Source of the DNA: a virus
Direction: 5' to 3' (one strand)
IMG/VR virus record: IMGVR_UViG_3300037963_002628
Span: 850-33,708 of that record
DNA: 32,859 nucleotides
Both the position numbers and the translations under genes were made by a program. The notes beneath the pieces are model-generated. The model did not search any database and was not told the origin of the DNA. It was given only the letters and a program-made list of their open reading frames with translations. Of the stretch, positions 1 to 22,300 are shown in pieces; positions within the stretch are counted from its first letter, which is position 1; the number at the start of each line of letters is the position of its first letter.

Positions 1-688
1 TTGTAGCAACGAGTTCTCCATCTGGAGAAAAATACTCACTAGCAGCTACATCGACATTATAGCCTTCTTGTAGTGCTAGATAAGTGTAATGTATATTGCC
101 ATTGCTTAGCATCCACTCTGCTAAAGGATCATACCCGTACGGTTCGGATAGTCTTTGAGCAAGCCCAGCATTAAACGACAATTTGTCATTAGCTTTATAT
201 CTATATCTTTCAGATGTTTCAAAGTATTTAATGTCTGCAAAGCCATCCTCTAAATACTCACCTTTAAGTATATACTTGTTGTCAACAAATCTTATAAAGT
301 GATGCTGATCTAAATATTCATTACCTTGTTGTCTTTTGTAATCTATTTCAAATAAAAATTCTAACCCTTTTACTTTCCCCACGTTAGCGCCGTCTGACCA
401 TGAGTTTTCAGTACCATCGTAAAATGTTTGTGCTCTGTTTTCATATCCAAACCTAGCTATTTTACGTATACCTAATGCTAGATTGTAATCATATGGCGTT
501 TGTATTGTGGCTGTTTCAAGTCCGTTTGTAACTGAAAAAGTTTCTACGTCTGATATAGACGTACCACCATTTGCAGCTGCATAAAATGTTGAAAACTTAA
601 ATATTTTTTTTATATTTTGACTACAGCATTTTTTAGGCGCCGCACAGGCAACCAATGCTATACACATTATTACGAGTAATTTTTTCAT
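1..688 (-). CDS. Phage-encoded lipoprotein, partial (C-terminus off the left edge)
   Basis: The frame opens with ATG at 688-686 and stays open for 229 codons to base 1, so the C-terminus is missing. The first 15 residues are a lipoprotein signal: two lysines, a hydrophobic run, then a lipobox L12-V13-A14-C15, with Cys15 the expected lipidated residue. Two more cysteines follow (C21, C22). The rest is rich in alternating aromatic and polar residues (for example LEFLFEIDY and ERYRYKANDKLSF), which suggests beta strands, possibly a barrel or sheet facing the periplasm or outer membrane. I do not recognise the family. The gene starts one base after the stop of the giant ejection protein, so it belongs to the late operon. 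Possible roles are superinfection exclusion by masking a receptor, a lysis accessory or a virion component; none is shown by the sequence. It is far too long for an Rz1-type spanin. The lipoprotein call is strong; the function is unknown. Confidence 0.8.
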   Translation of the reverse strand, partial: MKKLLVIMCIALVACAAPKKCCSQNIKKIFKFSTFYAAANGGTSISDVETFSVTNGLETATIQTPYDYNLALGIRKIARFGYENRAQTFYDGTENSWSDGANVGKVKGLEFLFEIDYKRQQGNEYLDQHHFIRFVDNKYILKGEYLEDGFADIKYFETSERYRYKANDKLSFNAGLAQRLSEPYGYDPLAEWMLSNGNIHYTYLALQEGYNVDVAASEYFSPDGELVAT

Positions 689-689
689 A

Positions 690-3600
690 TTAGTTAGTTA
701 GTTGTTTTGCTCTTTTTAAACTTTTACTTTTACTTTTTGTTTTTCTTCTTTTAGTTTTTGATCTTTGTTCTATACGGTCGTCTATACCAAGACCCCATCT
801 ATCCCAGCCCATGAATAAGAAAAATCTTTGCCAAGCAGCATTTTCTTCATTCATAACTTCACTTATATTAATATATTTTTCTCTCATCCTGTCTACAGGC
901 GCATTGGTAACAGCTTCAACACCTTTAGTTGTTATTTCCCACACTGGATTATCAATATCAAATAAAGGCATTTCAAATATAAGATCTTTATTAAATCTAT
1001 ATGTTCTTTGTGCTTGAAGTAGCTTTCTAGCTTTACTACCTAATGGTGGTGAAACATTTAGCAGTTCTACCAAAGGCGAAGCTTCTGTTGTACTAAATCC
1101 TTTTGTATTTTCTTTTACAAGTGCAAATATATAATTTTTAACCATAGAAACAGCGGCACCATAAATACCCGTACCACGTAAAAATGAATCGGCAACACCG
1201 TTCCATAATCTAAATGTTTTTGTTGCATTTTTTTCTCTTTGCTCTTCACTTTCGTCTTCGTCAAAAGCTAAAGCAAATAAAGCTGTTTGTAAGCTGTAAA
1301 ATATAACATTTTGAACAAAGCCATAATATAATATTCTAGATAAATTTGATATATCACTTTGCAACTGTGTTCCGTCTTCAGTTGTATTTCTTCTGTTTAT
1401 TAAATCAAGCGCAGCTTTCTTTTGTAAACGAGTCATTTGCATTGGTGTGTTTGCAAAAGCTAAAATAAAGTGACCTAATAAAGAAGCTTGTTGTTGCGAT
1501 AATAAATCAGGCCTTGAAGACTGTTGAGTTTCTTCAGCAAGACGTGTAAAATCTTTAAACGTCTGTTCTTTAGCTTCTTTAGCTGATTTACCTTGTTTTA
1601 TATACTTATTGTATCTATTTCTATAAAACGCAGCGCCACCTAAAGCTATTGCAAAACTATCTGCCATTTTTGTAGGTAAAAATCCTTTTTCTAAAATAAA
1701 ACCTATCATTGCTTTTATTTTACCAGTAGCAGTCTTGTCTTTTGAGTTTCTAATAGACTGTAACATTTCAGCGGCATTTAAATCTTGCTTCATACCTTTA
1801 CGTCTTTGTTTTAAGTATGAAGAGTTAAATAAAAATACAAAGTCTTCTATAAACTGTGGAAAGTTTGCATAAGCTTTTGCAACAGCAAACAAATTATTAT
1901 CTTCGTAGTTTACAAAGTTAACAAAAGATATAGTCTGTAAAGCAGCAGATCTACCGTTAAAAAACATAATTGTACTTACACCAGCGTTTATAAAGTTTAA
2001 AGCAGAGTTTGTTAACCTATTTAAACCTTTTGGCCTACTTCTACCAGTTTCCATACGGTATAACATGTCTTCTAAAGCTTCTCTAAAATTTAAACCAAAG
2101 GCCGCTTCAATTTTATTTAAATTCTTTTCTGAAAATATTATATTTTTTCTTTCTATCCACTCTGCTAAAAACTGTTTTCTGCTTACATCTTGCGATAAAG
2201 AAAATAAATCTGCAGCTATATTACCGACCAACCAGTTCTCTGTTGGCTGTACATAACCTTCTGGTAAACCTGTTATTCTAGACAATGCTAAAGCAAATGT
2301 TTTTAAATCGTTATTATTTTCTACATATTTAACTAACTCGTCTAAATCTTTTTTAGATAAACCAGGTATATCATAACCAGCCATAGCCCAAGCGTATACT
2401 CTTATAGCATCTGAGTTTGTATAATCACCAAAAGCTTTTTTATTTAGCTTTTTTCTTACATTAGGATATTTTTTTAACAAAGCCTCATATTCATTTTGAA
2501 CTCTCTGCTTAGCCTCATTTAATTTTATATAAGCTTCGTTAAACTCTTTAACCATAGTATCTAACCACCATTTTCTATGCGCAGTACCTTGTTTACCTTT
2601 ACCCATAAAATTATAAAGTAATCCCATAAAGTCTTCAGCTCCTGGTGGAATAAAAGGTCTAAATTTACCTTTATTAGCACCACGTTGACTAGCTTTAACT
2701 CTACTAAATTCTTTTTTAGCATCAATACCAGTAACTTCTTCTAATATTTGATTAAACTCTGCGTCTAAATTTGTTTTAGAAAACTTTAACTTAGCTTGTT
2801 GTACTTTTGACTTAACATCAAATTGATCTAATATATTTTTTACAGCCTGCACGTTTTGTAACGCATCGTCAGCAAAGTAAAAATCATTGTAACCTTCTGC
2901 GGCTTTATCAGCAACCCAAAGTGCTTTTGCTTCTGCCGTAGAGTTTGCTAATCCAGTTATATTTTTTAAAGGTATATTTAAACCATTAGCTTTTAAAAAC
3001 TCAAATATAGCAGGTGCAGCTTCAGCAGGTCTTGCTGTTAATACAAACATATTGCTAGGACCAAACTTCTTTTGTAACTTTAATGCTTTTTGAAATAACG
3101 GAGCTATTTTACCATCAACAACTTTATTAAACTGTGAAAAGTCAAACTTATAGCCTAAACCTAATAAATCTTGGTATGTGCTAGCATATTCAGCAGGTGT
3201 TAATGTTCCTTTTACACCTTCTGGTGTTACATATTCTATAAGAGAACTACTAGTTGCTAGTGTGTCATCAAAATCTAAAATAGTAATACCTTTTGTAGGA
3301 TTATTAATAGACTTAGAAAACTGGTAAGCTTTACCTAAAATTTGACGTTGATTAAACTTTAAAGGCGACTGTAACTTTAATAATTCAGCAGCTTCAACAA
3401 AGTCTTTACCCATAAATTCTTTATCAGTGCCTTTATGCTTAGGGTCTAAGCTAATTAAATAATCTAATGTAGGCTCACCAAAAGTAAACATGTTATAGTA
3501 TCTATTACCAAACAAAGGCATTTTTGATCTAAAACCTTTATCTGTTAAAGTAGTGTCCATATTAGAAGGTATAATAGCAACATGATAGTCTTCAAACACC

Positions 3601-6600
3601 ACGTCTCTATTCATCTTACCATCGTTAACGTAGCTAGCCAACATTCTAAGCATAGCTACAACTTGTGGTACCATATGTTCATACTCAAGCTCAGAACCTC
3701 TTTTGTTTACAGGCACATCTAACGCTGTTGAACTTATATAAGCTAAGTTTGCTGCTTTACGCATAATACTAGTCATACCAGACCCCATACTTGTAGCCAT
3801 CATTGCTAAGTCCAAATAATCAAAGTTAGATTTTTTAGATTTAACTTGAGCAAAGTTATAGTCCATAAACAGCTCTATAGCATCTTTAACGTCTTCAGAA
3901 GAGTTTTTTCTACCTTCATACTCACCGTAAGGATCTTTTAAAGCTTCTTCACTTTTTTCAGAGTAAGATGATTCAAAATTATATTTTTTTCTTATTTGAC
4001 CAGGTGTCATTCGCTTACCATTTTTAATAACTTCAACACCATTTATCTGGTTAAGCATGTTAAATATAAAATCATCAACATTAGCAAAATACTGTTTTCT
4101 ATTTTTAGATGGTTTTTTACCATCTTTAACTCTTTGTTCTTGTATTTTTGCCCATTCAGCTTCAGGTACTTCTGTAAGCAAACCAGTTTCTACATCAACT
4201 TTAATTCTTCCATCAGCTATTCTAGTAGCACCAGCAAGCATACCTTTAAAAAACTCTTGGCTGTAATAAACAGCTTGATCAATAGTTAGTTGTTTATTTT
4301 TTATAGCTTCGTTAAAAAAGTTAATAACATGAGCTCTAGCTTTATTAATTCTGTTTATATCTAAAAACCCTTCACCTATATTTTTAACGCCTTTAATTAA
4401 ACCCATATTAGTAAAGAAGTTAAATATAGCTGTTTCTTCATTTTCAAATATATAAAATTGGTTTATATATTCATCTAAAGCTATAGGTAAAACTACTTTT
4501 TTACCACCAACACCAGTGTGTACTTTTTTTAATCTACTATAATCTTTAATAACATTGTGAACTTCTTTAGCAACAGCTTTTTTACCTTTATCACTTATAG
4601 TATTTTTAAATGTTTTATCTAAAGCGTTTATTATAGACTCTATATTGCCATCATACATTTTAGCTATATTACTAGCGAACGTAGTTCTACCTTCTTCAAA
4701 TATAGCCTGCTCACCTTGAGGTAACTTTTTAGAAAATCTAAACGGCGCTTTACCGTCGTTTAAAGCTTGTGATATTAAACTACTAGGATTGTCTATAGTT
4801 TCAACAACAGCTTGATTTACAAATAACACAGCTGTTTCCATAACCGCCGCTCTAATTCTAGAGCTAGTATTGTCTTCTTTTTTATAAAGATTATCAGCAG
4901 ACCCTTTTGTTTCTGTTATACCAAACACACCTAGTATATAGGCCTTATTAAGATTTTTTATTTTTCTTTGTATTTTTAAATTAGAAGGTCTTTTAGCTTT
5001 TGTTTTAACCTCTATTATATTACCTTGCTCGTCTTTAATAATATCAGGAACTTCTATTTCTTCATAAAAAACATCTCTAGGTTCTTTCAACTTGTTTTTC
5101 TTAGTAGGTCTTTCAGTCATTAAAACAGATGTTGTACCTGTTGATTTATTATCGCTATTGTAACCTTCTGGAAAATTACCGTGTATAACGCTATAGTTAA
5201 ACTCTATTTTTAACTGAGCATTTTTAATATCTGTTTTTGTTAAATTACCCGGCTTAGGTTTTATACCGTAAAACTTAAACACCATGTCTATTATCTCTTG
5301 TGGTATTATACCTCTCACGTCTTTATAGCTTGACAAAACTTTAGGATCAATTTTACCTTCTTTTATCATTTTAACTATAGCTGCGTGTATTTCTTTAGCG
5401 GTAACAGTGTATTTTGTTTTATCATTAAAAGGCACAACCCAAGGATATTGATACAGTTTTAAATCTCTTTTCTTTATATCTTCATCTTTCTTTTTAGTAT
5501 CAGCTGCTTGTGAAGCTGCTTTTTTTGTTCCAACTTGTTGTTCAAAAAAGCCAGGTATTTGTCTAGCGGCAGCTGGTATTCTTAAAGGTATTAAACCATA
5601 TATATGAGTTGTTAGTTTAGCTTTTAGCGGGTTCCATGTATTAACCATAAAAGGTACACCGTTTTCGTTTTCAATACCTAAGGTTAAATTAGTTATCAAA
5701 TCATTTCTTAATGTAAAATCTTTAGTACCATCTTCTCTTAGCCTCATACCAGCATCAGGAGATAACTTTGATTTTATTTGAGCTAAAGTATATAGTTGCC
5801 ACTCTAAACCTATTTGATAACCTATAACAAGCTTATCATCTTTGCTTAATTTATTCCAAATATCTGCTTGCTCTTGTTTGTCTAAACTAGAAAAGTTAGT
5901 TACATCATGTAACATTTCCATTGACTCGTCTAACGCTTTGTTTACATTATCAAATAATTCGCTTTTGTTTTGTTTTTTGTCTTCTATAGGTTTTGAATAT
6001 TTTATACCTAAAGCATCTGCTATTTTTTTATTTAATTTTTCTTGTTTTTTTAGCAGTCTATTATATTGGTTTGCTACTTTTTTAACCTCACCAGATACTT
6101 CAAAACCTTCTTGAGCTCCTTTTTTAATAGCATCATTTATTCTACCTTTTTCTACATTGTATTGAAAGTCACGTAAAAAATTAAACACATCTCTACCGTT
6201 TCTAAATTTAATTTCCACACCAAAACGCTGCATTATTCTTCTTATAATATCACCTAGTTTTGTAAATACGTTTTCATTAAATTGTATATCACCACTTCTA
6301 AGAGCATCAATAAATAAAGTTAAACTTTCTTCAGCTTGAACATCAGCACCCATTTCAGCATAAGCTCTTAATCTTTTAACCATATTGCTATCTTGAACCA
6401 TAGAAGGATCTATGTTCATAATATATCTATTAAGTACATTAGCTAAAGCTAAAGCAGTTTGTGGATTGTCTAACAGCGTTTTTGCCAATACTCTGTGTAA
6501 AAACTCGTGAGCAGCTACATTAACATTACCACTTCTAGCAGCAACATCCATGTTAATATATATTTTTGTATTACCGTTTTTATCTGGCTTGCCTATAAAA

Positions 6601-9600
6601 CCTTCTGATTTTTTAGCTTCTTCAACCTGCTGGTTTATCAAAGCTACGTCTTCTTCTGATAACTGCTCTCCAGTTTCTTTGTTTATAAACTTACCGTCTT
6701 CAAGTACAAAAACTTCGCCAAGCTCTGTTTCAATGTTTTCTAATATACCAGCCTCAACAAGGTCTTTTACATCTTCATTACTTATTATTTCTATAGAAGT
6801 TTGACCTTCAGGGTACATTTCTTCTAATATTTTTCTTACCTTTTTTACATCTTCTTGTATAAGTTCTTCTGCAACTTCGTATATTATATCACCTTTTTTA
6901 TCAGATAATTCTTTTATTTTATTTTGTACTTCTTTTATTTTTTTCTTTTTAGACTTTGTTTTGTTTTCAGGATCTTGTAATTCTTCTAATTCTTGTCTAA
7001 GATTATCTAGCTCCTCGTTTATACCTATAACGTCTTCTCTTTCTTCTTTACTAAGTCTATTTAATATTTCTATTTCTCTAGCTTTAATTCTATCTGCTTT
7101 TCTTTTCTCATACTCTAGTGTGTCAAGATTTTCTGAGTTGTTAGAGTCTTTTAATATTTTTTCTGTTTCAAAATATCCTACAAAGTTACCTGTTATTTTT
7201 ACTTTTTTATCACCTAACTTACCACTATTAACTAAGTTTTCAAGATCTGTTTTAAATTCTGAATAGTTAGTGTACATCTCTTCACCTATCATCATTACAG
7301 GTGGTTTGTTACCAGTTACAAACTGATGACCCATGTTTATACCACCAAATACAACTTGAGCAACGCCGGTTACAGTAAACATATCTTTTAAAAATTCACC
7401 CCCTTCAGTCCAGTCTAATACAATATCTCCGTCTTCATCAGTTACTGGGTTTCCGTTTTTATCTAATTTTGGCGAAGCAAGACCAGTATACCATGGTTTA
7501 CCCATAATAATACTAGATAACGGTTGGTTAACAACTTCTTCAAAAACTTCACCAACTATACCGTTCCAACCAACGTTATTTTTCATAAAATGATTACTAG
7601 CAGCTAAACCACTTAATCCTTTTTTACGTAAATAGTTACCAACAACAAGCCTTTTCATCCAATCAGGATTGTTCATAACGTCTTTTCTTAAATATCTACC
7701 AAACATAGGTATTAACTCACCAAGTCTTTCTGTAAAAAACTCAGACCAAGTTATACCATATGCTCTACCAGCAGCTTCAAAGCTAGACATTTCAGTACCT
7801 TTTTTAAATGACGTTGTCATTTCTATGTTACCCATGTCTAAAAATTCACCAGACTCAATAGCATCTACTATGTCTATTATTTCGTTACCACCTTCAGTAA
7901 ACATGTAATACATTTCAGGCGTAATGTTTTCTGTAAAATGTTTTAAATATTGCTGTGGGTTTGCAGCGGCTTGAGCAGCTGTACCAACCATAAAAGACAA
8001 AGCATTTATACTTCTGTTAACAGCTACAATTTTACCAGTTTTCTGCATGGTACTTCTTAATACTGTTTTTTTAGCCGCGTCAGTTAATGCTTTTTTAGTA
8101 GCAGCTCTTGTACCAGTAAAAACACCACTTGTCAATATAAACTCACCAACGTATGGTACCATTTCAGCTAGCATTCTACCTCTTCTAAACGAAGGTGAAG
8201 CTTTTTTAGCAACTTCATTAGCCTGCTGTTTCATAGAATACATGTTTAAAGACAACGCTTCAAACTCAGTATAGTTTTCAGGATTTTTTTCTGAAAGCTT
8301 ATGTAACTCTATAAGATCAAATATTTCAGGTATTGCACCAATAAAAGGTACATATTGTTCACCTCTTAAACTTTTAAAACCATCAAAGAAGTTTTTTGTA
8401 GCAGACTTACTATATGACTCAGGGTTATTTATTATGTCTTCAGCAAACTTTTTTACATTTGATAATGCAATAAACTTTTCACTCCATTGAGCTGGTGTTA
8501 AAGGCCCGCCTGTAGAGTTGTCATAACCAACAGGGTTATTACCAGGAGCCATCATATACGCTTCACAAACCTCTATTTGTTTGTCTATATTTTGAGTTTC
8601 TAAAGTGTTAATTGCAAAATCTCTTAATGCAAAAGGTGTCATGTTACCGTTTTCGTCTTCAACTATTTTATCGTAGTAAGTATCATAAAACTCTTCTTTC
8701 ATTTGTTGAACAACGTTTTCATCGCTAAGCCCATCACCTAACAATGCTTTTTCCATTTCAGTCCAAATATTGTCTAGCACAACTCTTTTTTCTCTAGCTG
8801 GTAAAGTCATCCAAGCAGCTTTGTCTAACAGTTGATTTATTTTTTCATAATCACGATCAGGTATTATGTTAGGTACTTTAAACTCAGCAATAAAATCTTC
8901 CATACGCTTGTCAAACTCAGCAGAGTGCGCGGCTACAATATCTTCTTGTATTAAACGCATACGATCATTTATCTCTTTATTGTACAGATCATTTATTTGA
9001 TCCTCGTTCATATTTTCAAATTGACCTAAATAATATCTACGCCTAAAATCTTTTTGAACTATATCTTCTACAACAGGTATTTGTTCTCGCATAAGGTTGT
9101 TTACCTTTTCTTGCAAGTCCATTAATACAACAGCTTGTTCTGTTTCTATCGCGCTTTTTATTTTACCATGTTTAATTTGCTCTGCTTTAAACTGGTATTG
9201 TTTCCAATCAATATAATCGTAATCTACTCTTTTAACTTCTTTAAATAGTTCAGGAATATTAATTTTATCTTTTTTATCTTTTATATCTAAACCTCTAACT
9301 CTATTTTTTAAACGAGCATCTCTATCTGCTTTATATCTAACATAGTCTTTATTAATTTCAGCTTTAGCTTTTTTACTAAAAGTTTTTTCTAATAAATTCT
9401 TTTTTTCTTTTTCTAGATTTTGCAACCATACAGTTGCTTTAAATTTATTAATATCTTCTTGTGTAGCAGGTGTTCTTCTACTAGGGGTACCAGAATAACT
9501 TGGGTGCTCACTGTTGTAAGTAAACACTTGCTTACCATCTTTTTCATCCATAGTAATACCGTTAATATTTAACGCTTTTGTACCTGGAAAATGATCTGAA

Positions 9601-11666
9601 TCAGTATATGTTATTTTGGGATTTTTAAACGATGCGTTTTTTTGTTGTTGCTCTATAGCTTTGGCTTCATCTACCTTGCCTTCAACATCCACAGGTCTAC
9701 CACCTAACTCGTCTGGCAAAGCTTCTTGTTGTGCCGCGGATCCAACAGGTGCTGTTGTTACAGGTTCAGCTACATAAAGAAAATCATTAACATTAAAATA
9801 AGGGTTTACAACAGGCGTATTGTCAAAGTTTTCTCTTGTATTAGAACCATCTTCACCTTTGTTTTCATTTTGAATAATTTCTATTTCATCAGGATCTTGT
9901 AAGTTATCATCAAACTCCATGCCTTCAAGTTCAGATTCTTCAGCTTTCATTTCATCATAGCGTTTTTGCTGTTCTTCTGACATAGGTGGCATTTCACCTT
10001 CACCCGTAATATATCTTACTTCACTTGACTCACCATCAGGTGATGTTACTTTTTGAGTCATACCATATTGTGGTATGCCATTGTCATTTACACCAATAAA
10101 ACCAAAACCACCTGATATTGTAGAACCAGCTACTGCCTCTCTTCTTTGTTTTGCAAATTCTTCTGTAATGTTTATTTCATTGTTTTCTACCGTTCCTTCA
10201 CCTTCTGTTCCTGTGCTACCTGTAGTTCTTTGTCCTTGTGGTAAAAAAGAGTTTGTACCTCTTAATGGATCGCTTATATCAATATTAAACGGGTTTTGCA
10301 AATTAATTCTAGGTGTAAATGTTTGCTCGTCACTTCCAGGTGTTTGTTCAGCTACTGGACCTGTAGGTGGTTTAGTTAAGTCTACTTCAGGTTCTTTAAC
10401 TTTTATTTCTTCACCAATTTTCTTTTCAATATTTTTTATAAGATCATCTGTTTGATTTGGTTGAGTACCTTCGATATTAAAATCAGGATCATACTCTTTA
10501 AATTTTTTATCAGGCTGTATATAAAAATCATCGGTAGTTATGTTATCATCATCACCTGGATCTATAGAAAAAGGATCTGCTTTTTTGAGCTTTGGATCTA
10601 ATCCAGTTATTGGTAATTTTTTTATAGGTAACTTTTTTATACCTTGCTCACCAGCATCACCTTGTATATTTACCTGTGGCAAAGTGCCACCACTATAAAT
10701 ATTATCATCTGACGCGGTTGGATCGCCAGCTCCACTACCTGTTTGTCCATCGCCAGGACCAGGGCCAGTTCCACCTTGGTTTATAATCTCACCTGTGCTT
10801 GGATCAATAACTGTTTGGCCACTTATAGGGTCGCCTTGCTCGTTACGCTCTATATTGTTAAATTCGTTTATTCTTTCAACTTCAGAAGTCGTGTATACGT
10901 TACTACCGGCAACACCATCAATAACACTGTAGTTTTTAAACATTATATCAAACTTGTCTCCTTCTTGACGATTAAATCTTTCTGCAGGATTTATACCATT
11001 ATCTGTGTTAAATCTTAAGTTTCTACCACCATCTGTTTGAGTGTTTAAGTATTCTGTGTTCCACCCTTTTTCTGTACCCTCAAAATCCAAAGCTACATCA
11101 AGGCCAATATCAAAATACTTAGGATCTTCTAAAAGATCTAGCATCTCTGTAACGCTTTTGTAGTTTTCTCCAGTTTCTGGATTAACTTGTGATAACACGT
11201 AGGCCTCAAACCTTGCTGCTCTTTCCGGATCGTAAAGCTCACCTGTAGCAGGATCACTTTGGATAGTTGTTTGCAAAGCACCTATACCACCACCAAAACC
11301 ACCATATCTAGCTATGTTTTTTTCTGTATTTGATAGCTTGTTATAAGCTTTTTCAGCTGCAAACTCGTCTATTTCACCATTATCTTTAACATAACCATTT
11401 TTTTCAGCCCACCTGTCTAGTCTTTGGTTTATTTTAAACCAATTTTGCCTTATGTCATTTTCTTCGTATGGGTATATTTTTGACCCACCCTTTTTACGCT
11501 TTCTATTTTCCGCCCAAGAAGGTGGAACTTCTTTGGTTGCTTTAAAAGAAGTTTCTAACTCTATATTAGCTAAAATAGCATTAATACCCTGATCGTTGAT
11601 ACCAGGGTATTTTGCTTTTATTTTTTTAACAGCAAGAGCTTTATTTTCTTTTGCAGTATTAGCCAT
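690..11666 (-). CDS. Giant multidomain ejection (internal virion) protein with lysozyme-like, metallopeptidase-like, HAD and LPD38-like regions
   Basis: This is one uninterrupted 3658-residue frame. Residues 1-190 look like a muramidase or transglycosylase (helix with E36 and E38, then a glycine-rich RYGGFGGGIGALQ stretch at 120-132). Residues 270-790 are low-complexity linker rich in P, G, D, E and T. Residues 790-1050 are charged and helical. Hydrophobic patches lie near 1165-1190 and 1425-1450, and a strong coiled coil at 1520-1590. HEFLH at 1720-1724, with E1779/E1780 downstream, marks a zinc metallopeptidase-like domain. D2798-F-D-D-T2802, T2877 and D2933-D2934 mark a HAD phosphatase fold. 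Residues 3205-3525 resemble LPD38, a domain of phage polyvalent proteins. Position as the last and largest of three ejection-type genes, with lysozyme at the N-terminus, parallels T7 gp16, although it is almost three times longer. Its length also recalls the N4 virion RNA polymerase, but I found no polymerase motifs. Domain calls rest on motifs read by eye. Confidence 0.85.
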   Translation of the reverse strand: MANTAKENKALAVKKIKAKYPGINDQGINAILANIELETSFKATKEVPPSWAENRKRKKGGSKIYPYEENDIRQNWFKINQRLDRWAEKNGYVKDNGEIDEFAAEKAYNKLSNTEKNIARYGGFGGGIGALQTTIQSDPATGELYDPERAARFEAYVLSQVNPETGENYKSVTEMLDLLEDPKYFDIGLDVALDFEGTEKGWNTEYLNTQTDGGRNLRFNTDNGINPAERFNRQEGDKFDIMFKNYSVIDGVAGSNVYTTSEVERINEFNNIERNEQGDPISGQTVIDPSTGEIINQGGTGPGPGDGQTGSGAGDPTASDDNIYSGGTLPQVNIQGDAGEQGIKKLPIKKLPITGLDPKLKKADPFSIDPGDDDNITTDDFYIQPDKKFKEYDPDFNIEGTQPNQTDDLIKNIEKKIGEEIKVKEPEVDLTKPPTGPVAEQTPGSDEQTFTPRINLQNPFNIDISDPLRGTNSFLPQGQRTTGSTGTEGEGTVENNEINITEEFAKQRREAVAGSTISGGFGFIGVNDNGIPQYGMTQKVTSPDGESSEVRYITGEGEMPPMSEEQQKRYDEMKAEESELEGMEFDDNLQDPDEIEIIQNENKGEDGSNTRENFDNTPVVNPYFNVNDFLYVAEPVTTAPVGSAAQQEALPDELGGRPVDVEGKVDEAKAIEQQQKNASFKNPKITYTDSDHFPGTKALNINGITMDEKDGKQVFTYNSEHPSYSGTPSRRTPATQEDINKFKATVWLQNLEKEKKNLLEKTFSKKAKAEINKDYVRYKADRDARLKNRVRGLDIKDKKDKINIPELFKEVKRVDYDYIDWKQYQFKAEQIKHGKIKSAIETEQAVVLMDLQEKVNNLMREQIPVVEDIVQKDFRRRYYLGQFENMNEDQINDLYNKEINDRMRLIQEDIVAAHSAEFDKRMEDFIAEFKVPNIIPDRDYEKINQLLDKAAWMTLPAREKRVVLDNIWTEMEKALLGDGLSDENVVQQMKEEFYDTYYDKIVEDENGNMTPFALRDFAINTLETQNIDKQIEVCEAYMMAPGNNPVGYDNSTGGPLTPAQWSEKFIALSNVKKFAEDIINNPESYSKSATKNFFDGFKSLRGEQYVPFIGAIPEIFDLIELHKLSEKNPENYTEFEALSLNMYSMKQQANEVAKKASPSFRRGRMLAEMVPYVGEFILTSGVFTGTRAATKKALTDAAKKTVLRSTMQKTGKIVAVNRSINALSFMVGTAAQAAANPQQYLKHFTENITPEMYYMFTEGGNEIIDIVDAIESGEFLDMGNIEMTTSFKKGTEMSSFEAAGRAYGITWSEFFTERLGELIPMFGRYLRKDVMNNPDWMKRLVVGNYLRKKGLSGLAASNHFMKNNVGWNGIVGEVFEEVVNQPLSSIIMGKPWYTGLASPKLDKNGNPVTDEDGDIVLDWTEGGEFLKDMFTVTGVAQVVFGGINMGHQFVTGNKPPVMMIGEEMYTNYSEFKTDLENLVNSGKLGDKKVKITGNFVGYFETEKILKDSNNSENLDTLEYEKRKADRIKAREIEILNRLSKEEREDVIGINEELDNLRQELEELQDPENKTKSKKKKIKEVQNKIKELSDKKGDIIYEVAEELIQEDVKKVRKILEEMYPEGQTSIEIISNEDVKDLVEAGILENIETELGEVFVLEDGKFINKETGEQLSEEDVALINQQVEEAKKSEGFIGKPDKNGNTKIYINMDVAARSGNVNVAAHEFLHRVLAKTLLDNPQTALALANVLNRYIMNIDPSMVQDSNMVKRLRAYAEMGADVQAEESLTLFIDALRSGDIQFNENVFTKLGDIIRRIMQRFGVEIKFRNGRDVFNFLRDFQYNVEKGRINDAIKKGAQEGFEVSGEVKKVANQYNRLLKKQEKLNKKIADALGIKYSKPIEDKKQNKSELFDNVNKALDESMEMLHDVTNFSSLDKQEQADIWNKLSKDDKLVIGYQIGLEWQLYTLAQIKSKLSPDAGMRLREDGTKDFTLRNDLITNLTLGIENENGVPFMVNTWNPLKAKLTTHIYGLIPLRIPAAARQIPGFFEQQVGTKKAASQAADTKKKDEDIKKRDLKLYQYPWVVPFNDKTKYTVTAKEIHAAIVKMIKEGKIDPKVLSSYKDVRGIIPQEIIDMVFKFYGIKPKPGNLTKTDIKNAQLKIEFNYSVIHGNFPEGYNSDNKSTGTTSVLMTERPTKKNKLKEPRDVFYEEIEVPDIIKDEQGNIIEVKTKAKRPSNLKIQRKIKNLNKAYILGVFGITETKGSADNLYKKEDNTSSRIRAAVMETAVLFVNQAVVETIDNPSSLISQALNDGKAPFRFSKKLPQGEQAIFEEGRTTFASNIAKMYDGNIESIINALDKTFKNTISDKGKKAVAKEVHNVIKDYSRLKKVHTGVGGKKVVLPIALDEYINQFYIFENEETAIFNFFTNMGLIKGVKNIGEGFLDINRINKARAHVINFFNEAIKNKQLTIDQAVYYSQEFFKGMLAGATRIADGRIKVDVETGLLTEVPEAEWAKIQEQRVKDGKKPSKNRKQYFANVDDFIFNMLNQINGVEVIKNGKRMTPGQIRKKYNFESSYSEKSEEALKDPYGEYEGRKNSSEDVKDAIELFMDYNFAQVKSKKSNFDYLDLAMMATSMGSGMTSIMRKAANLAYISSTALDVPVNKRGSELEYEHMVPQVVAMLRMLASYVNDGKMNRDVVFEDYHVAIIPSNMDTTLTDKGFRSKMPLFGNRYYNMFTFGEPTLDYLISLDPKHKGTDKEFMGKDFVEAAELLKLQSPLKFNQRQILGKAYQFSKSINNPTKGITILDFDDTLATSSSLIEYVTPEGVKGTLTPAEYASTYQDLLGLGYKFDFSQFNKVVDGKIAPLFQKALKLQKKFGPSNMFVLTARPAEAAPAIFEFLKANGLNIPLKNITGLANSTAEAKALWVADKAAEGYNDFYFADDALQNVQAVKNILDQFDVKSKVQQAKLKFSKTNLDAEFNQILEEVTGIDAKKEFSRVKASQRGANKGKFRPFIPPGAEDFMGLLYNFMGKGKQGTAHRKWWLDTMVKEFNEAYIKLNEAKQRVQNEYEALLKKYPNVRKKLNKKAFGDYTNSDAIRVYAWAMAGYDIPGLSKKDLDELVKYVENNNDLKTFALALSRITGLPEGYVQPTENWLVGNIAADLFSLSQDVSRKQFLAEWIERKNIIFSEKNLNKIEAAFGLNFREALEDMLYRMETGRSRPKGLNRLTNSALNFINAGVSTIMFFNGRSAALQTISFVNFVNYEDNNLFAVAKAYANFPQFIEDFVFLFNSSYLKQRRKGMKQDLNAAEMLQSIRNSKDKTATGKIKAMIGFILEKGFLPTKMADSFAIALGGAAFYRNRYNKYIKQGKSAKEAKEQTFKDFTRLAEETQQSSRPDLLSQQQASLLGHFILAFANTPMQMTRLQKKAALDLINRRNTTEDGTQLQSDISNLSRILYYGFVQNVIFYSLQTALFALAFDEDESEEQREKNATKTFRLWNGVADSFLRGTGIYGAAVSMVKNYIFALVKENTKGFSTTEASPLVELLNVSPPLGSKARKLLQAQRTYRFNKDLIFEMPLFDIDNPVWEITTKGVEAVTNAPVDRMREKYINISEVMNEENAAWQRFFLFMGWDRWGLGIDDRIEQRSKTKRRKTKSKSKSLKRAKQLTN
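1092..2054 (-). other. LPD38-like C-terminal region of the giant protein
   Basis: Residues about 3205-3525. From memory this matches the Large Polyvalent-protein associated Domain 38 seen at the C-termini of giant phage proteins: hydrophobic helices, then LPTKMADSFAIALGGAAFYRNR, EETQQSSRPDLLSQQQAS, HFILAFANTPMQMTRLQKKA and a further membrane-like segment IFYSLQTALFALAFDEDESE. Several helices are hydrophobic enough to enter a membrane, which fits a part of an ejected protein that forms a channel or anchors in the inner membrane. The function of the domain is not established. Confidence 0.6.
2802..3299 (-). other. HAD-superfamily phosphatase-like domain of the giant protein
   Basis: Residues about 2790-2955. 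All the main HAD motifs are visible in order: motif I ITILDFDDTLATSS with nucleophile D2798 and acid/base D2800; motif II MFVLTARP with T2877; a plausible motif III lysine in the AEAKALWVADKA helix; and motif IV DFYFADDALQN with D2933/D2934. The spacing (about 135 residues between motifs I and IV) suits a small, nearly capless HAD such as nucleotidases or polynucleotide 3'-phosphatases. The substrate is not determinable from the sequence. All catalytic residues look intact, which argues for an active enzyme. Confidence 0.8.
6267..6599 (-). other. Zinc metallopeptidase-like (HExxH) domain of the giant protein
   Basis: Residues about 1690-1800. The motif AAHEFLHRVLA supplies H1720, E1721 and H1724. 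About 55 residues later VQAEESLTLF supplies E1779/E1780, the place and helix type expected for the third zinc ligand of gluzincins. Metallopeptidases are known components of phage polyvalent proteins. Possible roles are self-cleavage of the giant protein in the virion or attack on a host protein after ejection. A chance HExxH is possible, but the hydrophobic helix around it and the downstream EE make that less likely. Confidence 0.6.
11097..11666 (-). other. Lysozyme / lytic transglycosylase-like N-terminal domain of the giant protein
   Basis: Residues 1 to about 190. The helix AILANIELETSFK (30-42) matches the pattern in phage tail lysozymes and transglycosylases where a catalytic Glu precedes S/T-x-F; E38 is the best candidate and E36 the alternative. 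The Gly-rich GGFGGGIGALQ segment (122-132) resembles the substrate-loop glycine-leucine-glutamine motif of lysozyme-like folds. Expected role: local cutting of peptidoglycan during DNA entry. The exact family cannot be settled by eye. Confidence 0.6.
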
Positions 11667-11688: not shown

Positions 11689-12912
11689 TTATTCTTGGTT
11701 TGTTACTTTAGAACCAAATTCCATTTTAAACAGCCTTTTTAGCTTTTCTATATCCATGTTTTTAGGATAGTATTCTCTATTAACCCACTCACCGTTACTA
11801 TATACTTCAACGCTGTACATGCCGTTTTCGTCTGGATCTTCTGACAAATCACCGTCTGATATTCTAACAGTGGCAGTACGCATTGTAGATAAGTCAAAAG
11901 TGTTGTCTTCTTCATTGTAAGAGTTTTCTACCATTCTGTTAATATCAGCATCTATTCTACCGCCTCTAGTGTTATCGCCTTTGTTCATTGCTAATCCAGC
12001 GTTGTACTCTTTATTTCTAATATCATTATAATAGTTTATAGCCTCTCTTTTTAGTCTCATCTCATCAAAATCTTCGTGATCTATATTAGCCCAGTTCATA
12101 GGATCTTTAGGATTTTTCATTTGATAAGATTTTACAAAACTTGGTTCGTTAGGAGCATATGGATCCCACGCAAAACTAACAATATCGTTAGTATTATCTA
12201 ACAAGTCATTATAATCAGTAGTAGTTCTTATATTGTTTTGATTATCTCTTAAAACATTATTACCATTTAAACCAGCTGTTTGTATATTTTTTAAATCCGC
12301 TACAACAGCATCTTTTAGTTTTGAATTAAATAAAATTACATTTTTATCTAAATCATTTTGGCTAACAAACTCAAAAGTACCATCGCCATCAATATCAACT
12401 TCAAACTCGTTAGTTCTTGTATCAGGGTTCCATCTTACGCTTTTATAGTTTTGGCTATGTACTTGCTCGTTAAAAGCCAATGTATTTGTAGATGAACCTT
12501 CTGAATAATACGGTTTACCATTTTTTCTACCATTTCTATTTGCATTATATGCTACTTTGTCTTTATCTAAGTTGTCAATAGCAGCATTAAAATCTGCAGA
12601 AAATCTGTCAGCTTCATATTTGTACTGTGGGTTTAAATAATCAGAAGCTATATTAGCTTTGTGTGTTTGAAACTCATTAAAACCTAATGCAGCTAATTTA
12701 GGATCTGTAATTTTTATATTTACTTTACCTTGATTATTAGTTACTTGTTTTAAAGCAGCGTTTCTAATAGCTGCAGTTTGCTTTTGCCTTAAAGCTTCTT
12801 GTTTTTGAAAGTTTTTTAAAGCATTAGTTATAGGCGTAGCTATAAGTTCAGACTTGAACTCAACAGGACCTCTTAACCCTTTTTCTCCTTGTATTAATAG
12901 TTTATTTGCCAT
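11689..12912 (-). CDS. Probable internal virion / ejection protein (T7 gp15 position)
   Basis: 407 residues; I do not recognise the family. The N-terminal 60 residues are helical and rich in K, Q and A; the middle is asparagine- and aspartate-rich with many polar turns; there is no signal peptide or membrane segment. A single D-x-D-G-D-G loop (VDIDGDGTFEF, about residues 171-181) resembles a calcium-binding loop, but there is only one. The gene lies between the Q/A-rich 238-residue protein (3 bases upstream) and the giant lysozyme-bearing protein (22 bases downstream), which is the place of gp15 in the T7 gp14-gp15-gp16 set. The assignment as a virion ejection or cargo protein is by position only. 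Confidence 0.55.
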   Translation of the reverse strand: MANKLLIQGEKGLRGPVEFKSELIATPITNALKNFQKQEALRQKQTAAIRNAALKQVTNNQGKVNIKITDPKLAALGFNEFQTHKANIASDYLNPQYKYEADRFSADFNAAIDNLDKDKVAYNANRNGRKNGKPYYSEGSSTNTLAFNEQVHSQNYKSVRWNPDTRTNEFEVDIDGDGTFEFVSQNDLDKNVILFNSKLKDAVVADLKNIQTAGLNGNNVLRDNQNNIRTTTDYNDLLDNTNDIVSFAWDPYAPNEPSFVKSYQMKNPKDPMNWANIDHEDFDEMRLKREAINYYNDIRNKEYNAGLAMNKGDNTRGGRIDADINRMVENSYNEEDNTFDLSTMRTATVRISDGDLSEDPDENGMYSVEVYSNGEWVNREYYPKNMDIEKLKRLFKMEFGSKVTNQE

Positions 12913-12915
12913 AGT

Positions 12916-13632
12916 TTATGGATTAAAAATCTTTTTCATTTGTTCTAGAAAACTTCCTCCTTCAACTTTTGAAGGTGAAGATAAACCAGCTTGCATCAAA
13001 CCTCCTGCGGCAGCGCCAACTCCACCAACTAATCTATCCATTGATCTTTGCTCTGCGGCTCTAGCGTCTCTTAACCTTGTTTGTGACATACCAAGCAATG
13101 TTTCTGTTCTATCTTTTATTAAACTTCTAGAATATACATCACCTTGTCTTTGTAAATTTTGTAATCTACTTTCCTCTTGTAGTCTAGCCATTTGATTAGC
13201 TTGTTCTTGTTGACCAAGACTTATTGAAGCTTGTCTAGTGGCTTGAACACCTTGATTAGCTAGTGTTTGTGCTAACGCAGCTATACCACTACCACCTGCA
13301 GCGCCTTGTAAGTTTTGTAATATATTAGCTTGTTGTTGTTGTATTTGTTCAGCTTGAAAATCAGCCTGTTGAGTATTTACTCGTAAATCTTCATAAACAT
13401 TCTCCATGTTGTTATAAGGATTACTAGTGTCTAATGACATGTAATCTGCTTTTCTAGTATCATACTCGTCTCTAGCATCTCTTATTTCTTGTAAACGCTC
13501 ACCCTTACCTCTTCTAGCCATTAAACCAGAAGCCACTTGTAAGCCAGCACCAATAAGCATAGGTGCCCACGCAATCGCATGGTTTACTCCTTCAGCTTGG
13601 TAAGTTAATATTTCTAAAATTAAGTCTATCAT
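12916..13632 (-). CDS. Probable internal virion / ejection protein, Q- and A-rich helical (T7 gp14-like)
   Basis: 238 residues. A hydrophobic stretch near 19-38 (IAWAPMLIGAGLQVASG) is followed by a basic patch MARRGKGERL and then a long helical, glutamine- and alanine-rich body (QQADFQAEQIQQQQANILQ; LQGAAGGSGIAALAQTLA; LGQQEQANQMARLQEESRL) and a final glycine-rich GGVGAAAGGLMQAG. The pattern of an amphipathic or membrane-seeking N-terminus plus a Q/A-rich coiled body is that of T7 gp14-like ejection proteins and similar proteins in uncultured marine phages. ATG at 13632 is preferred for its A/T-rich leader; Met25 is an alternative start that would place the hydrophobic segment at the very N-terminus. 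Confidence 0.65.
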   Translation of the reverse strand: MIDLILEILTYQAEGVNHAIAWAPMLIGAGLQVASGLMARRGKGERLQEIRDARDEYDTRKADYMSLDTSNPYNNMENVYEDLRVNTQQADFQAEQIQQQQANILQNLQGAAGGSGIAALAQTLANQGVQATRQASISLGQQEQANQMARLQEESRLQNLQRQGDVYSRSLIKDRTETLLGMSQTRLRDARAAEQRSMDRLVGGVGAAAGGLMQAGLSSPSKVEGGSFLEQMKKIFNP

Positions 13633-13671: not shown

Positions 13672-14073
13672 TTATTTACTACTTAATAGCACCTCTGACC
13701 CAACAGCAAACAGCTCTATCTTGCCATCTGATGAGTTTTTCATTTCTATTTCTGCGTAATAACCTAATATACCTGATTTATTTACGGCTGTATCTTTAGC
13801 AAATAATATAAAATCATCAGCAACAGGAGTTCTAATATTACCAGTATATGTAACGGTAATCGTTTTTCTATCACTACTAATATCTGTACATGTACCTAAA
13901 TATACAACTTCAGTATCGCCGTCTTGAACAAAATATATATTGTCCCAACCACCAACATCATTAGCAACAGACTCACCATAATTTGTTGTGTTTTGTCCAG
14001 ATGCTACAGTTGCTGTTTTAGCTTGTAAAGATGCGTTTACCTCGTTAGTAAATGTTATTGTCATTGTTGCCAT
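13672..14073 (-). CDS. Small beta-rich structural protein (virion, decoration-like)
   Basis: 133 residues, mostly predicted beta: MTITFTNEVNASLQ at the start, an alternating DRKTITVTYTGNIRT strand pair, and ILGYYAEIEMKNSSDGKIEL followed by LFAVGSEVLLSSK at the end. The C-terminal pattern (GYYAEIEMKN followed by ELFAVGSEV) is one I associate with short structural proteins of marine phages. It sits 11 bases after the 758-residue protein and before the ejection genes. It is probably a tail or capsid decoration protein; no enzymatic motif is visible. Its start has the leader AAATAAATATATG, one of the clearest examples of the leader type in this window. Confidence 0.65.
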   Translation of the reverse strand: MATMTITFTNEVNASLQAKTATVASGQNTTNYGESVANDVGGWDNIYFVQDGDTEVVYLGTCTDISSDRKTITVTYTGNIRTPVADDFILFAKDTAVNKSGILGYYAEIEMKNSSDGKIELFAVGSEVLLSSK

Positions 14074-16365: not shown

Positions 16366-19300
16366 TTAGTTTTGTTTTAAATAAGCTGTTCCTGTTACGT
16401 TACGTGTTTGTTTAACATCTGCACTTGGTGTCGATGTAGTTTGTGTTACTCCAACCCTGATAATATTAGTTGTAAGACCAACGTGCGCTGAAGAAGCCGC
16501 CCAAGTACCATTATTATTGTAACCATCTTCATAACTTAATGTACCACTACCACTACAAACAAAGCCACCGGTAATTGTATCAACAGTATAATCATTACCA
16601 TTAACATTTAAACCATGTACATAAAAATAATGACTTGTTGCCGTGCTTGCATTAGCTGCTATAAATAAATCAACTTCTTTGCTTGCTGTTGTAGAACTAT
16701 CTGTTACGCTACTTGTTACTCTCCATTTAACAGGCACATCAGCATCAGATTCAGTTGAAGTTATTGTTACGCGTATTAATCTATAGACAGGGCTAGGGCC
16801 AGCCACACTTAAAGCTGTACCTATACCTTGCACAGCTAATTCTTTTAAATCTATATTAGTAGCATCGGTATCTACACCTTTTATATTATTAAACCATTTA
16901 CCTTCTTTCTCTACAAACTCTAATATTTCACCAGATTGTTTGTCTGTAGTTATTGATGAAGCATACCAACCTTCTGTAGTAACACTGTTAGATGTATATG
17001 CTTGCGATTGAGTTCCTTCATAAGACAAAGTTTTAAACACTTTAACGTCTGATGGATTTTCATTAAGTAAAAACTTAACGGTAGAGTCATATTCAACACC
17101 ATAAAATTGGTTTCTATTTTCATTTAAATTATGTAGCCATAAATTACCATCTTTAAAAGTATAATAATAACCTTTTAGTGAAACACCACTTTCAGGTATA
17201 AAAGACTTAAAACTATTCCAACCATTTACATTGTCATTAAAACTAACAGTATAATTATTTAGTGTTAAATTGTAATTATCTTTATCTTCGTCGTAAGTAC
17301 CAAGTATTGTTGATGCTGGTTTTAAATTATCTTTAAACCAACTATCCATGCCGTAAACAGATATATCTGTTAAGCCGTCTCCAGAAAGTCTTAATACAGC
17401 GCTTCTATTTTTATCAACAAAATATATTCTATAACCAAAATTAGCAAATGATTCTGGATTTTTAGCTATACCATATTCACCGGCAAAAGGTATTGTTTGG
17501 CCTAAAACATTGTTTGTTGATGTTAAATTTGTATTACCATCAGCATTAAACAAAGCATCTTTATTAGCCAATACTTTTAGTATTTTATTTTCACAAAAAG
17601 CAAGTACGTTTGTATTTCTAGTAAAAAGTTTTTGTATTGAACCATAATCAGGGTTTACAAATTTAGTTATTTTTTCAGCTTGATTAAACTCGTTTAATCT
17701 ATTAACCCCGCTGTCATAATTATATATACCTGAGTATATTATACCGTTTTGATTATGCTCTTTTCTATATGGCACTTTAAGCACAGAAGAAACTCTAGCA
17801 CCTTTATCTATAATCGCCGAATTAAAATCATCTCTAACTCTATTTGACTCAACGCCATTACCAAAAGAAAAGCAATTATAATACTTAAGGTTGTGTAAAG
17901 GTAATACTATTCTTTGATTTACAGACGTTATAGGCCCAGAAGTTGTAGATCCACTTCTAGTGGCTTGTACATATATAGAACCAGGTTTTACCAACTTGTA
18001 AGATAAAACAAAAGACCTACTGTGAGTTACATTGCCATTATTGTCTAAGCGGTGTATTTTAAATGTTTCACCAGCTGGTATATCACATGTTTGTTTTAAG
18101 CTACTATAAGTACCATTAGTTTTATTGTGCGTACCGTGATCAATATAAAATTGCTCTGGGTATCTATCGTCACAAGTTATAGTTGCTGTAGAAAGTAAAG
18201 CGCTAGCGTTTGTGGAGTCATCAATATAATCTGTTGTAATTTTCATACCTGTTTTAGGTATTAATATAGCGTCAGAAGTTTCGTAATATAAGTTTAAATC
18301 AACTCTTTCTTTTGGTTCTGACTCAAATATAGCTGGTGAAGAACTGGCAAAAGTATCTTCATTTGGTAAATCCTGAAGTATTTCTAATGTAGATGTGTTT
18401 GCTAGTCTATAAGGACCAGTTAAACTTGTGTCGTTATCTAATGGTGATATATAACCATCACCAGTACTAGAACTTGTAACACCAACACCAAAAACTTGCT
18501 CACCAATTAACGCCGTGGGATTTGTAGGTGTCCAAGCTATAGGCTTATCTAATTCTACATGTATTCTAACACCTTGATTTGATCTTTTATGAAAATCACT
18601 ATCATCATCGTCATTTGTGTAATTATTAACATCTAAAACTTCAGCGGCGCTAATAGTGTAAATTGTATTAGTTGGATCACTTTGCCATCTAAACTTTGTG
18701 CCAGCAGTTCTTAGCTTATCATATATAGGCCAGTTTTCAAAAAACTGTTTAAACACGCTAGATTTTCTATCAAACTTATAACCCTCGTTTTGATCGTCGC
18801 CAGGCTCAGTACCATCACCAATATTTATAACCCTAAAGTCAGCGTGCTTATTACCAAGTAAAAAACCACAACCCATGTGTTTACCCATATTGCCTGTAGT
18901 ACCAGTATTATTATGTTCTTTTTTAGAATTTCGTAAGTCCTTTTCTTCTTTTTGCATCCAACCAAAACCACTATCTATAACCCACATTTGGTCTGACTTT
19001 GCAAACACACCGGGATTTGTTATTGCCAAAGCCCCTCTTACCTCGTTTGGAATTCCCCCTAAAGAACCATCATCAACAGGCCCTACTATAGTAGTGTCTA
19101 AAGATAAAGTTTGCTCGCTTTCAGCAAAGTTAAATGTGTCTTTTTGATGATCTAAATCATCACTTTCGTAACCTTCCGAGTTTTGGCCACTAATATAATT
19201 GTGCAACCAATGTAATTTTTGGCTAGCAACAACGCCATATTCTCTTGTAGGCGTTGAATAAGTTTTAAGTATATGATTATTAAACTCTAAATCTTTTATT

Positions 19301-22300
19301 ATTTTAACAAAAAATCTACCATCAAATTCAGCTTTGTAATCGTTTGGATTGCTTTTATAAAGCTCTAAATCTAAAAGTCTGCTTGAACTACCAGGAGCTG
19401 GACCAGTAAAAGATATATCATCTCCAAAAGCATCTATAAGCTCAAACTCGTAATAATTAACACTGTTGGCTAAATCATAAGTAATTTTTTCTACTTTATA
19501 ATAATTACTAGCTGTACCCTGCTTGTTAGAATAAATCCTAATAAAAGTATTGTCCATTATTTTTCTAGTACCAACAGTTTGTTCTGGTAATATATCCAAA
19601 GCGGCTTGAGTGCTAGCAAATTTAGTAGCGTTTACTCTTACTATAACTCTACCTTTTAAAGGATAACCAGTTGATTCGTTTATAGAAGACGTGGTAAAGT
19701 TACAGCTTGTTGCAACACCTACTAATTTTTTTTCATTAGCAACAAAAGTAGGTGGTGATGTTTCAATAGCCATAACTTTATATCTAAATACTTTTCCTGC
19801 TGTAGCTTGAAAATCATCAGTTCCATCGTGAGATTTTTTTAATATTAAATAATCTTCTTCTTTAATTTTGTTTATATCTGAAGATGGAAATGAAATCCAA
19901 ACTTGATCAGATTCTTCTGCTGGATAAAATCTATCCATACACAAATTGTAGTATTCTGCCGAAGGATCTTTTACGTAAAATTTATAATGAGTTGCAAAAT
20001 CTGGTGGTAAACTTGTTAGTTTTGCTTTTAAAGTGTTTGATTTATTTGATAATTCTTGACCTAAATTAACAACGTTTAAACTATCATTAGAAAAAACAGG
20101 TGTTGTTCTACCATACTTATCTAATAAAGCAACACCAACTTGGTATTTTCTTAACGATTTTATAGACTCTTTAGGTAGTTGACCTTGTTCAACTTTATTT
20201 GACGCTACTATACATTTTATAACAGGTTCTTCTTGTAAATCATATTGTTGTTCATAGTTTCCATACAAAAGTCTATTAGCTGTTACTTCTTGAGCTTTTG
20301 CTGTTCTAGGAACATTATCATATTGTCTTAATAATTGATTTTCTGGTAAAACTGCATGTACCATTTCTGAAGTTATAGATACTTCCAGCGGATCATCAGC
20401 TAAAGAAGATAAAGAGTTTAGCGAATATGCTGAATCACCAGCTTTTATTGTTTTTAAAGAGTAAACAGCTGTTGAATTTGAAGCTTTATATAAAATATCA
20501 ACTTCAACAACATCTTCTGGTGCTGGGTCAAAATTATTTAAAGTTATTCTTCTAACATCGTTGATCATTGATTTATTAAAACCTTCTTCAGTGTCATAGT
20601 CATATTCACTGCTTGGTAAGAAAGCTACTTTTGTAAATGGTGAAAAAGCTGAGTATTGATTGTCTTCATATTTCCATCTATAAGCAAATCTTGCAAAGTT
20701 TTCTTGATGTAAAGCTTCTTTTTTAACACGCACTGCGTTCCATTTTTTAGCTTGACCTGGTGTTAATTGAGCTACAGAATCGTCTATAGAAACTATTTCA
20801 CATTCAAAAGCTTTTCTTGATTGATTAGATCCAGTAGGCTTAAAATCTATTTGACCAGACATCGTAACTGGCTTTAAACTAAGGTTACTTAGCTCAAGGT
20901 CTGGATCATTGCCTACAAAAAATCTAAGCCTATCAGTGTCCTCAGTACCTTGTCTAAAATATATAGTGTGAGTAGCGTTGTTTGATAATAATTTTACAAT
21001 AGCATTTGAACTAGTATCGCTTAAGTTAAAAGCTTGCCCAGTTAGTTGTAAACATTCAGAACCTGTGTTTGTAGAATTAGTTAATGTATAGGTAAGTTTG
21101 TACCAATTACCAGCAACTAAAGAAGTTGTTAAACCACCATTACTTGTTGTTGCGTCTAAAGTACCAGAAGCGCTTGTTGCGCTTGTTGCCTTGTTACTAC
21201 CTATTGTCCAACCACTACTACCAATTGTCCACTTACTAGCATCTGAAAAGTTAAGAGCACTTGCGTGCAGTACTTCGGTACCAACAGTTGTTGCTGCTGT
21301 GTAAGTAGGAAACTCAGTAACACTAGTTGTTTGTATATTTTCTCTTGTTAAAGCAACTTTTATTTTAACATCTGCGTCTGTATTTAAAGGATTGTCCGCT
21401 AACGTAAGTTCTACAGTATCTCCAACAGTGTAGTCAGGTTTTCCATAAAACATTAACTCTTGTATTCTTACAGGTCTTGGCTTTGTTATACACTCTACGT
21501 TAATATTTTTAATTGTACCAGCTGTTTTTATGTCTTTTATAAAAATTAAACCAGCACCTGATGGTGTGTCCCAACTTCCACCCATACCGGTAGAAGGCGC
21601 ATTAAAATCACCGTGCGGATCATATTGAAAAATACCACTAATACTTTTACTTCCTGTCGTGGTAAATGTTGCTCTAAGGTCTTTTCCAACACCAAAGTTA
21701 TTTCTAATCGATATAGTTTCAGTACCACTTGTTGTGCCTATTGCAGTAAGAGTAATATCCATGCTTACTTTATAAAAATGCCCAGGTATTAAACCATCTC
21801 TATCAGAACTGTTTTCTGGTATAGCTCTATACAAAAACTGGTCATCATCAGTAAGACCAGTGTTTGTACTTGCACGCATCAGCAAGCCATTTGGCATTAT
21901 AAAAGTAACTCTAGTTTTGTTAGAAGAGTCAGTAGAAAAATGTTCTGTAACAGCTTTATCTAGCTTTATTATTTGAGGACTACTACCAGTAACGCTTACT
22001 ACTTTTGTGAACTCTTGAACAACCTCATCAACAGCACTAGTAACAACCATACCTACTAAAATATCTGATGCGTTAGTAGAATCATATATAATTTGAGCGT
22101 CAGAGCTGTCAGCATACATATCATTATAACCAGGGTCTGATCCTGAAATATTTGCTACAGGCGCTAGTTTGTGCCAACCACTTAGCGCTGAAGTGGTTTG
22201 TTGACCACCACCACTTGGCGCTGGAATAGCACTATCAGGACTACTAAGTATAATGTCATCTTTATCAAATCTTGGTGTAAAATCTACACCGCTACCATCA

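Follow-up and report, generated by a model that had tools for sequence, protein, structure and literature searches.

The genes of the internal proteins gp14, gp15 and gp16 of phage T7 lie in small-medium-giant order. To our knowledge, zincin and HAD domains are absent from gp16. Phage polyvalent proteins in which lysozyme and zincin domains are fused have been described, and their injection has been predicted (Iyer et al. 2017; PMC5512222). The zincins of these proteins combine an HExxH motif with a Glu in the following helix; that of N4-like proteins was linked to lethal factor, and zincin cleavage before packaging has been documented for DdrB of phage P1 (Iyer et al. 2017; PMC5512222). So far, polyvalent proteins have mostly been predictions from scattered architectures. 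The virion RNA polymerase gp50 of phage N4, a protein of approximately 3500 residues that is ejected, carries an HExxH domain and a large helical C-terminus without known homologues (PMC12633501). Storage and proposed ejection of large proteins have also been described for the cargo proteins of crassviruses, in a Bacteroidetes phage. The giant protein presented here belongs to a family of at least 584 members in which one core and one HAD domain are kept almost without exception, hydrolases are swapped, and a kinase is sometimes added.

The phage genome is incomplete, since the window, i.e., the whole stretch of DNA analysed, comprises 32.9 kb of a 33.7-kb IMG/VR record. Its G+C content is 0.33. 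Open-frame calling and translation revealed that the giant, P0001, is encoded on the minus strand in a single intact frame of 3658 codons starting with ATG (690-11666), in agreement with an earlier note on this DNA. A frame of this length would stay open at the composition of the window with a probability of about 1e-145; its G+C content by codon position is 0.45/0.33/0.19. The gene is the last of a structural operon that runs from the C-terminus of TerL via the portal, a 385-aa protein, a capsid-type protein and three more structural or unassigned genes to a 2387-aa structural protein and proteins of 758, 133, 238 and 407 aa. It is thus located among the late virion genes, after those of TerL, portal, capsid and tail-type proteins, as is the case for polyvalent proteins. 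The 238-aa protein (12916-13632, minus strand) is a candidate internal or ejection protein homologous to gp99 of Cellulophaga phage phi38:1 (8e-26) and to proteins of the elemo, Panino and phi46:3 phages. The 407-aa protein is encoded between this gene and that of the giant (11689-12912, minus strand); no homologue of it was found when the neighbours of the relatives were searched. A terminator-like hairpin 3' of the giant gene (545-563, minus strand) may mark the end of the operon, although the signal is weak, with one hairpin found by the consensus scan versus 0.4 expected.

By most testable features, the giant is a phage polyvalent protein. Like those described before, it is multi-domain, adjoins virion genes and has a zincin of the same layout; for them, lysozyme-type domains have been named as partners and injection is predicted (PMC5512222), as we predict it for the giant. 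Domains of several unrelated activities are united in the one polypeptide, as both a zincin and a HAD with invariant active sites are present. Differences also exist: the C-terminal core of the giant has no LPD match above cut-off, and in its family one core is fixed and hydrolases are swapped behind one linker. The giant has a HAD domain, while the words "haloacid" and "phosphatase" are absent from the main text of PMC5512222; relative to that main text (Iyer et al. 2017), the conserved HAD, the core family, the swapping of hydrolases and the kinase inside the HAD are new. Both T7 gp16 and the giant are encoded by the last of three internal-protein genes, which for the giant would be those of the 238- and 407-aa proteins and its own. 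The N-terminal transglycosylase of gp16 has its counterpart in the SLT domain of the relatives L135 and L191, but the giant itself is nearly three times as long as gp16 and its N-terminus is not recognisably SLT. With N4 gp50, the giant shares its size, an HExxH motif and a large helical C-terminal part. The likeness noted is one of size and layout, and no RNA polymerase domain was found in the giant.

The source is an uncultured marine podovirus-type phage, probably with a host among the Bacteroidetes. Its structural operon is of the podovirus type and related to those of Elemovirus and phi38:1. The portal and TerL proteins match those of the unclassified phage MW202828 at 53% and 62%, respectively, and also those of Maribacter phage Panino, the Flavobacterium elemo phages and phi38:1 (Pervagoviridae); more distant matches are with Tenacibaculum phage Gundel and the phi46:3-type Cellulophaga phages (Pachyviridae). 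In a portal tree, the window and 12 uncultured IMG/VR phages form one supported clade with the cultured relatives outside it; some cultured branches are very long, which makes the order among the cultured relatives unsure. Metagenome bins are the source of all genome contigs that encode members of the giant family, and a good number of these bins are of Bacteroidetes, as expected of phage contigs binned with their hosts or by mistake. Because these contigs may have been binned rightly or wrongly, we infer the host rather than observe it. Maricaulis, Woesearchaeota and Aliivibrio are among the labels of metagenome-assembled genomes in which family contigs also occur (L210-L228), probably through binning contamination.

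Giants at the equivalent operon position are annotated as structural in the elemo phages and in phi38:1, the annotation notes of the latter pointing to similarity to phi18:1. The elemo and MW202828 giants (3694 and 3859 aa) and phi38:1 gp101 share the operon position of P0001, and the former two contain HExxH. No homologous HAD or C-terminal core was found in any of them and only the elemo zincin is weakly similar; the C-terminus of P0001 showed no homology to the giants of cultured relatives by tblastn, jackhmmer or hhalign. As neither the C-terminal core (at tblastn sensitivity) nor the HAD has a homologue in the annotated phage collection, the "structural" annotations concern positional equivalents of P0001, not proven homologues over the whole length.

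Searching IMG/VR with an alignment of the C-terminal part yielded at least 584 relatives, of which 80 were kept for analysis. Single-sequence patterns detected no relatives of P0001, and the full-length alignment of giants was too variable for seeding a search. The 69 complete giants among the matches listed have lengths of 2032 to 3620 aa (median 2713). All 69 carry the C-terminal core, which is by construction since the loci were chosen on core similarity; this does not apply to the counts of the HAD (68 of 69), the common zincin (62) and a domain with an EHxxP motif (30). In the family to which the giant belongs, the C-terminal core is conserved and the cargo exchangeable. The core spans residues 2960-3658 (693-2789, minus strand), with residues 2960-3654 forming a conserved family of their own that is 39-50% identical to 12 aligned members (alignment A5), and it is modelled with moderate confidence as mostly helical. 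Its conservation suggests that it binds the virion or drives packaging. By a simple hydropathy scan, the giant of the window has no 21-residue stretch of strong hydrophobicity, and 17 relatives have one in their C-terminal part.

The earlier note had also postulated an LPD38-like region at residues 3205-3525. At the sequence level this assignment (PF18857) was rejected: neither 15 giants nor the C-terminal piece gave an hmmscan match that passed the curated cut-off. A family search for LPD38 was empty, as were its controls; a distant kinship is possible. The sole LPD-type signal in the giant is a weak LPD14-like stretch at residues 1349-1390 (7497-7622, minus strand; PF18827, E 3.2e-5), with a score of 24.4-25.1 bits that is under the cut-off of 27. 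The EHxxP domain (residues 2560-2790; 3297-3989, minus strand) has an invariant EH that is usually located 130-200 residues before the HAD, and is without family match.

The HAD phosphatase domain comprises residues 2788-2963 (2778-3305, minus strand). All elements of the HAD signature (DxD.T, T/S, K and DD) are present in the giant, and 85-88 members show little or no variation in the motifs DFD(D/E)T, LTAR, K and DDAxxNV. D2798, D2800, T2802, T2877, R2879, K2914, D2933 and D2934 are invariant across the 85-88 aligned sequences. In a VIA-align comparison using a model of residues 2560-3658, the matches fell on model residues 229-404 and were mostly HAD-superfamily proteins, so that both the conserved residues and the predicted fold bear out the HAD domain that had been recognized before. 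T4 Pnkp ranked first with its 3'-phosphatase domain (129 residues aligned at rmsd 3.0 Å, Z 11.9), and other Pnkp entries were also among the best; rows at most one Z unit apart are tied, so the rank of Pnkp is a lead and not proof. It agrees with an independent, weak sequence signal: of 13 members compared with phrog_415 ("polynucleotide kinase"), 6 gave a match, at best with 2.6e-7. PDB sequence searches using the HAD, zincin and C-terminal profiles gave no credible match. In four relatives (L140, L142, L144 and L150), a P-loop kinase (AAA_33/Zeta_toxin, GGxGSGKS) is inserted between HAD motifs I and II, the offset of which is 277 versus about 79 usually. Kinase and phosphatase are also joined in T4 Pnkp, but there the kinase precedes the phosphatase whereas in the relatives it is inside the HAD; the HAD of the giant is without kinase. 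A phmmer search of the PDB with the kinase of L150 gave no match, which leaves Pnkp-type and Zeta-type inseparable. By their sequences, the four relatives would be Pnkp-like kinase-phosphatases, while a Zeta-like kinase could do other chemistry.

The zincin-like metallopeptidase domain (residues 1626-1854; 6105-6791, minus strand) was delineated by an alignment of 63 sequences, a model and fold comparisons. Its HExxH motif is HEFLH, at residues 1720-1724 (6495-6509, minus strand), and E1780 (6327-6329, minus strand), in a helix after the HExxH helix, is the candidate third zinc ligand. H1720, E1721, H1724 and E1780 are invariant in all 63, and the domain thus combines HExxH with a conserved Glu in a later helix, as do the zincins of polyvalent proteins. 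The protease-like domain postulated earlier could in this way be traced to 62 of the 69 listed giants. HExxH of any kind occurs in 68 of these 69 full-length giants versus 0.9% of shuffled sequences. Seven complete giants miss the common zincin; one has no HExxH and six have it in another setting. In those six (L142, L148, L155, L157, L168 and L184), a different mid-protein motif (HEL.H) apparently is a non-homologous replacement. The model (mean pLDDT 78.6) has strands followed by the HExxH helix and, later, the helix with E1780. Foldseek retrieved no match from the PDB. When the fold of the catalytic part was compared a second time, the only match was a weak one, with the zincin-fold protein anthrax lethal factor (171 residues at rmsd 5.4 Å, Z about 5). 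The second match in a fold comparison with a viral library (E 0.03, prob 0.92) was a phage protein whose name refers to a large polyvalent protein-associated domain. A family search for MPTase-PolyVal (PF18818) was empty, with no match above the curated cut-off in 10 records. Since PF18818 is unmatched, the zincin belongs to a clade other than MPTase-PolyVal or is too divergent for the PF18818 model.

Residues 1-283 (10818-11666, minus strand) constitute an exchangeable N-terminal slot, which is followed by a linker at residues 284-352 (IDPSTGEIINQGGTG...; 10611-10817, minus strand) common to the relatives L134, L135 and L229-L232. By blastp, the linker is homologous to those of L134 (8e-9) and L135 (3e-6). 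In all linker-sharing loci found, a wall hydrolase scoring above cut-off precedes it: GH108 in L134/L230 and SLT in L135/L232, L229 and L231, where L230 is on the same contig as L134, and L232 on the same contig as L135. SLT was also found in the giant L191 and GH108 in L149. For the SLT domain of L135, matches were obtained with a lytic transglycosylase of solved structure (7.6e-11) and with an "internal protein" of a phage (7.4e-5). An exchangeable wall-hydrolase slot is thereby established in the relatives. In the slot of P0001 itself, NIELETSF (residues 34-41) and GGGIGALQ (residues 125-132 approximately) lie about 90 residues apart. By eye, they recall the order seen in lysozymes, where GxxGLxQ comes after a catalytic Glu; the counterparts in L135 are IEKESAF and GATGLIQ. 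No credible Pfam, PHROG, NCBIfam or PDB match was obtained with residues 1-200. The N-terminal domain is a singleton, without homologues in IMG/VR, genome contigs, phages, plasmids or any of the fetched loci, and a Phage_lysozyme2 family search was empty. The lysozyme-like nature that the earlier note gave to this part of the giant is thus supported indirectly, by the slot that SLT or GH108 occupies in linker-sharing relatives. The first 200 residues of L179 contain NPGNI and a lysozyme-like pattern without a Pfam match, and are possibly a further type of hydrolase in the slot.

The domain order, the intact active-site motifs, the last place in the operon and the modular exchange among relatives can be read directly from the genes. 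They fit an ejected multi-enzyme protein in which a wall hydrolase would be merged with delivered enzymes, as had been proposed from the DNA before; the combination as such has already been described (PMC5512222). We consider it probable that the giant is a virion-packaged, ejected polyvalent protein with a conserved core and exchangeable cargo. It and its 238- and 407-aa neighbours would be packaged and expelled together, their small-medium-giant succession being that of T7 gp14-gp15-gp16. The N-terminal lysozyme-like domain would open the peptidoglycan locally, the zincin would mainly cut its own chain and free the domains before or after entry, and the HAD domain, once freed, would act in the cytoplasm of the host, where its most likely task is that of a phosphatase for 3' ends of nucleic acids. 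Catalysis as well as packaging and ejection are what we infer, the latter two from the operon position, the homologous 238-aa neighbour, the "structural" positional equivalents, and the precedents of the polyvalent proteins, N4 and the crassviruses. The giant could, instead, be an inner-core or assembly protein only, which organises the portal vertex and uses its protease and HAD in assembly or maturation without delivering any enzyme. The location of its gene at the end of the structural operon and the zincin cleavage of P1 DdrB before packaging (PMC5512222) would suit such a role. We regard it as improbable, since it is hard to see what assembly would gain from the HAD, kept in nearly all listed relatives, or from wall hydrolases at the N-terminus.

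Other alternatives concern the separate domains. The lysozyme-like motifs of P0001 could be fortuitous and its N-terminal domain no wall hydrolase, as the lack of credible family matches and of homologues in any collection searched would suggest. This is rather unlikely, since the motifs stand in the right order, with the Glu of NIELETSF before GGGIGALQ, and SLT or GH108 stands at that place in every linker-sharing relative found. The argument from position is stronger than that from motif likeness; because of it, the domain of the window is probably another hydrolase occupying the slot. For the zincin, a role as an injected effector cutting host proteins, as claimed earlier, was named as possible by Iyer et al. 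(PMC5512222) and would agree with the weak fold likeness to a host-cleaving zincin toxin. Self-processing is at least as likely, for nearly all listed giants have an HExxH irrespective of their further cargo, usually another one where the common zincin is missing, which suits general processing better. Most likely, the zincin mainly processes its own chain, and we give the effector role little credence. The case of the HAD is more evenly balanced. Its fold is common to many phosphatases, the leading Z values are tied, the match of highest probability in Foldseek was the HAD effector phosphatase Ceg4, and the kinase inserted in relatives matches Zeta_toxin too. Action on nucleotides, small phosphorylated metabolites or phosphoproteins is, therefore, a serious contender with a little less than an even chance. 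The T4 Pnkp rows at the top of the fold ranking and phrog_415, which are independent of each other, argue against it. Because of this Pnkp resemblance and the inserted kinase, we prefer healing of nucleic-acid ends, by phosphatase action on 3' ends, as the role of the HAD. A more specific proposal, put forward tentatively and with more doubt than confidence, is that this large, uncultured clade of marine phages brings in a 3'-phosphatase of the Pnkp type, accompanied by a kinase in some members, as part of a giant ejection protein that processes itself, and could so mend strand breaks made by host nuclease defence before any phage gene is expressed.

The family displays, as a clean series provided by nature, how ejection proteins of widespread marine phages exchange their modules, and lets the entry of ready-made enzymes together with the genome be put to the test. 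With a member in culture, one could test directly whether the protein is delivered and cleaves itself, and what an injected phosphatase does.

Two further observations were made on neighbouring genes and annotations. The MW202828 giant (L003:741-12320, 3859 aa) contains two HExxH motifs, at residues 1615 and 2500, and its annotation as a "reticulocyte binding/rhoptry protein" is likely a misannotation. In the window, phrog_18548 matches two proteins: its first half aligns with the C-terminal part of the 2387-aa one (16366-23529), its second half with the 133-aa one (13672-14073). As one phrog spans parts of both, these proteins may be one gene in other phages that is here separated by the 758-aa gene.
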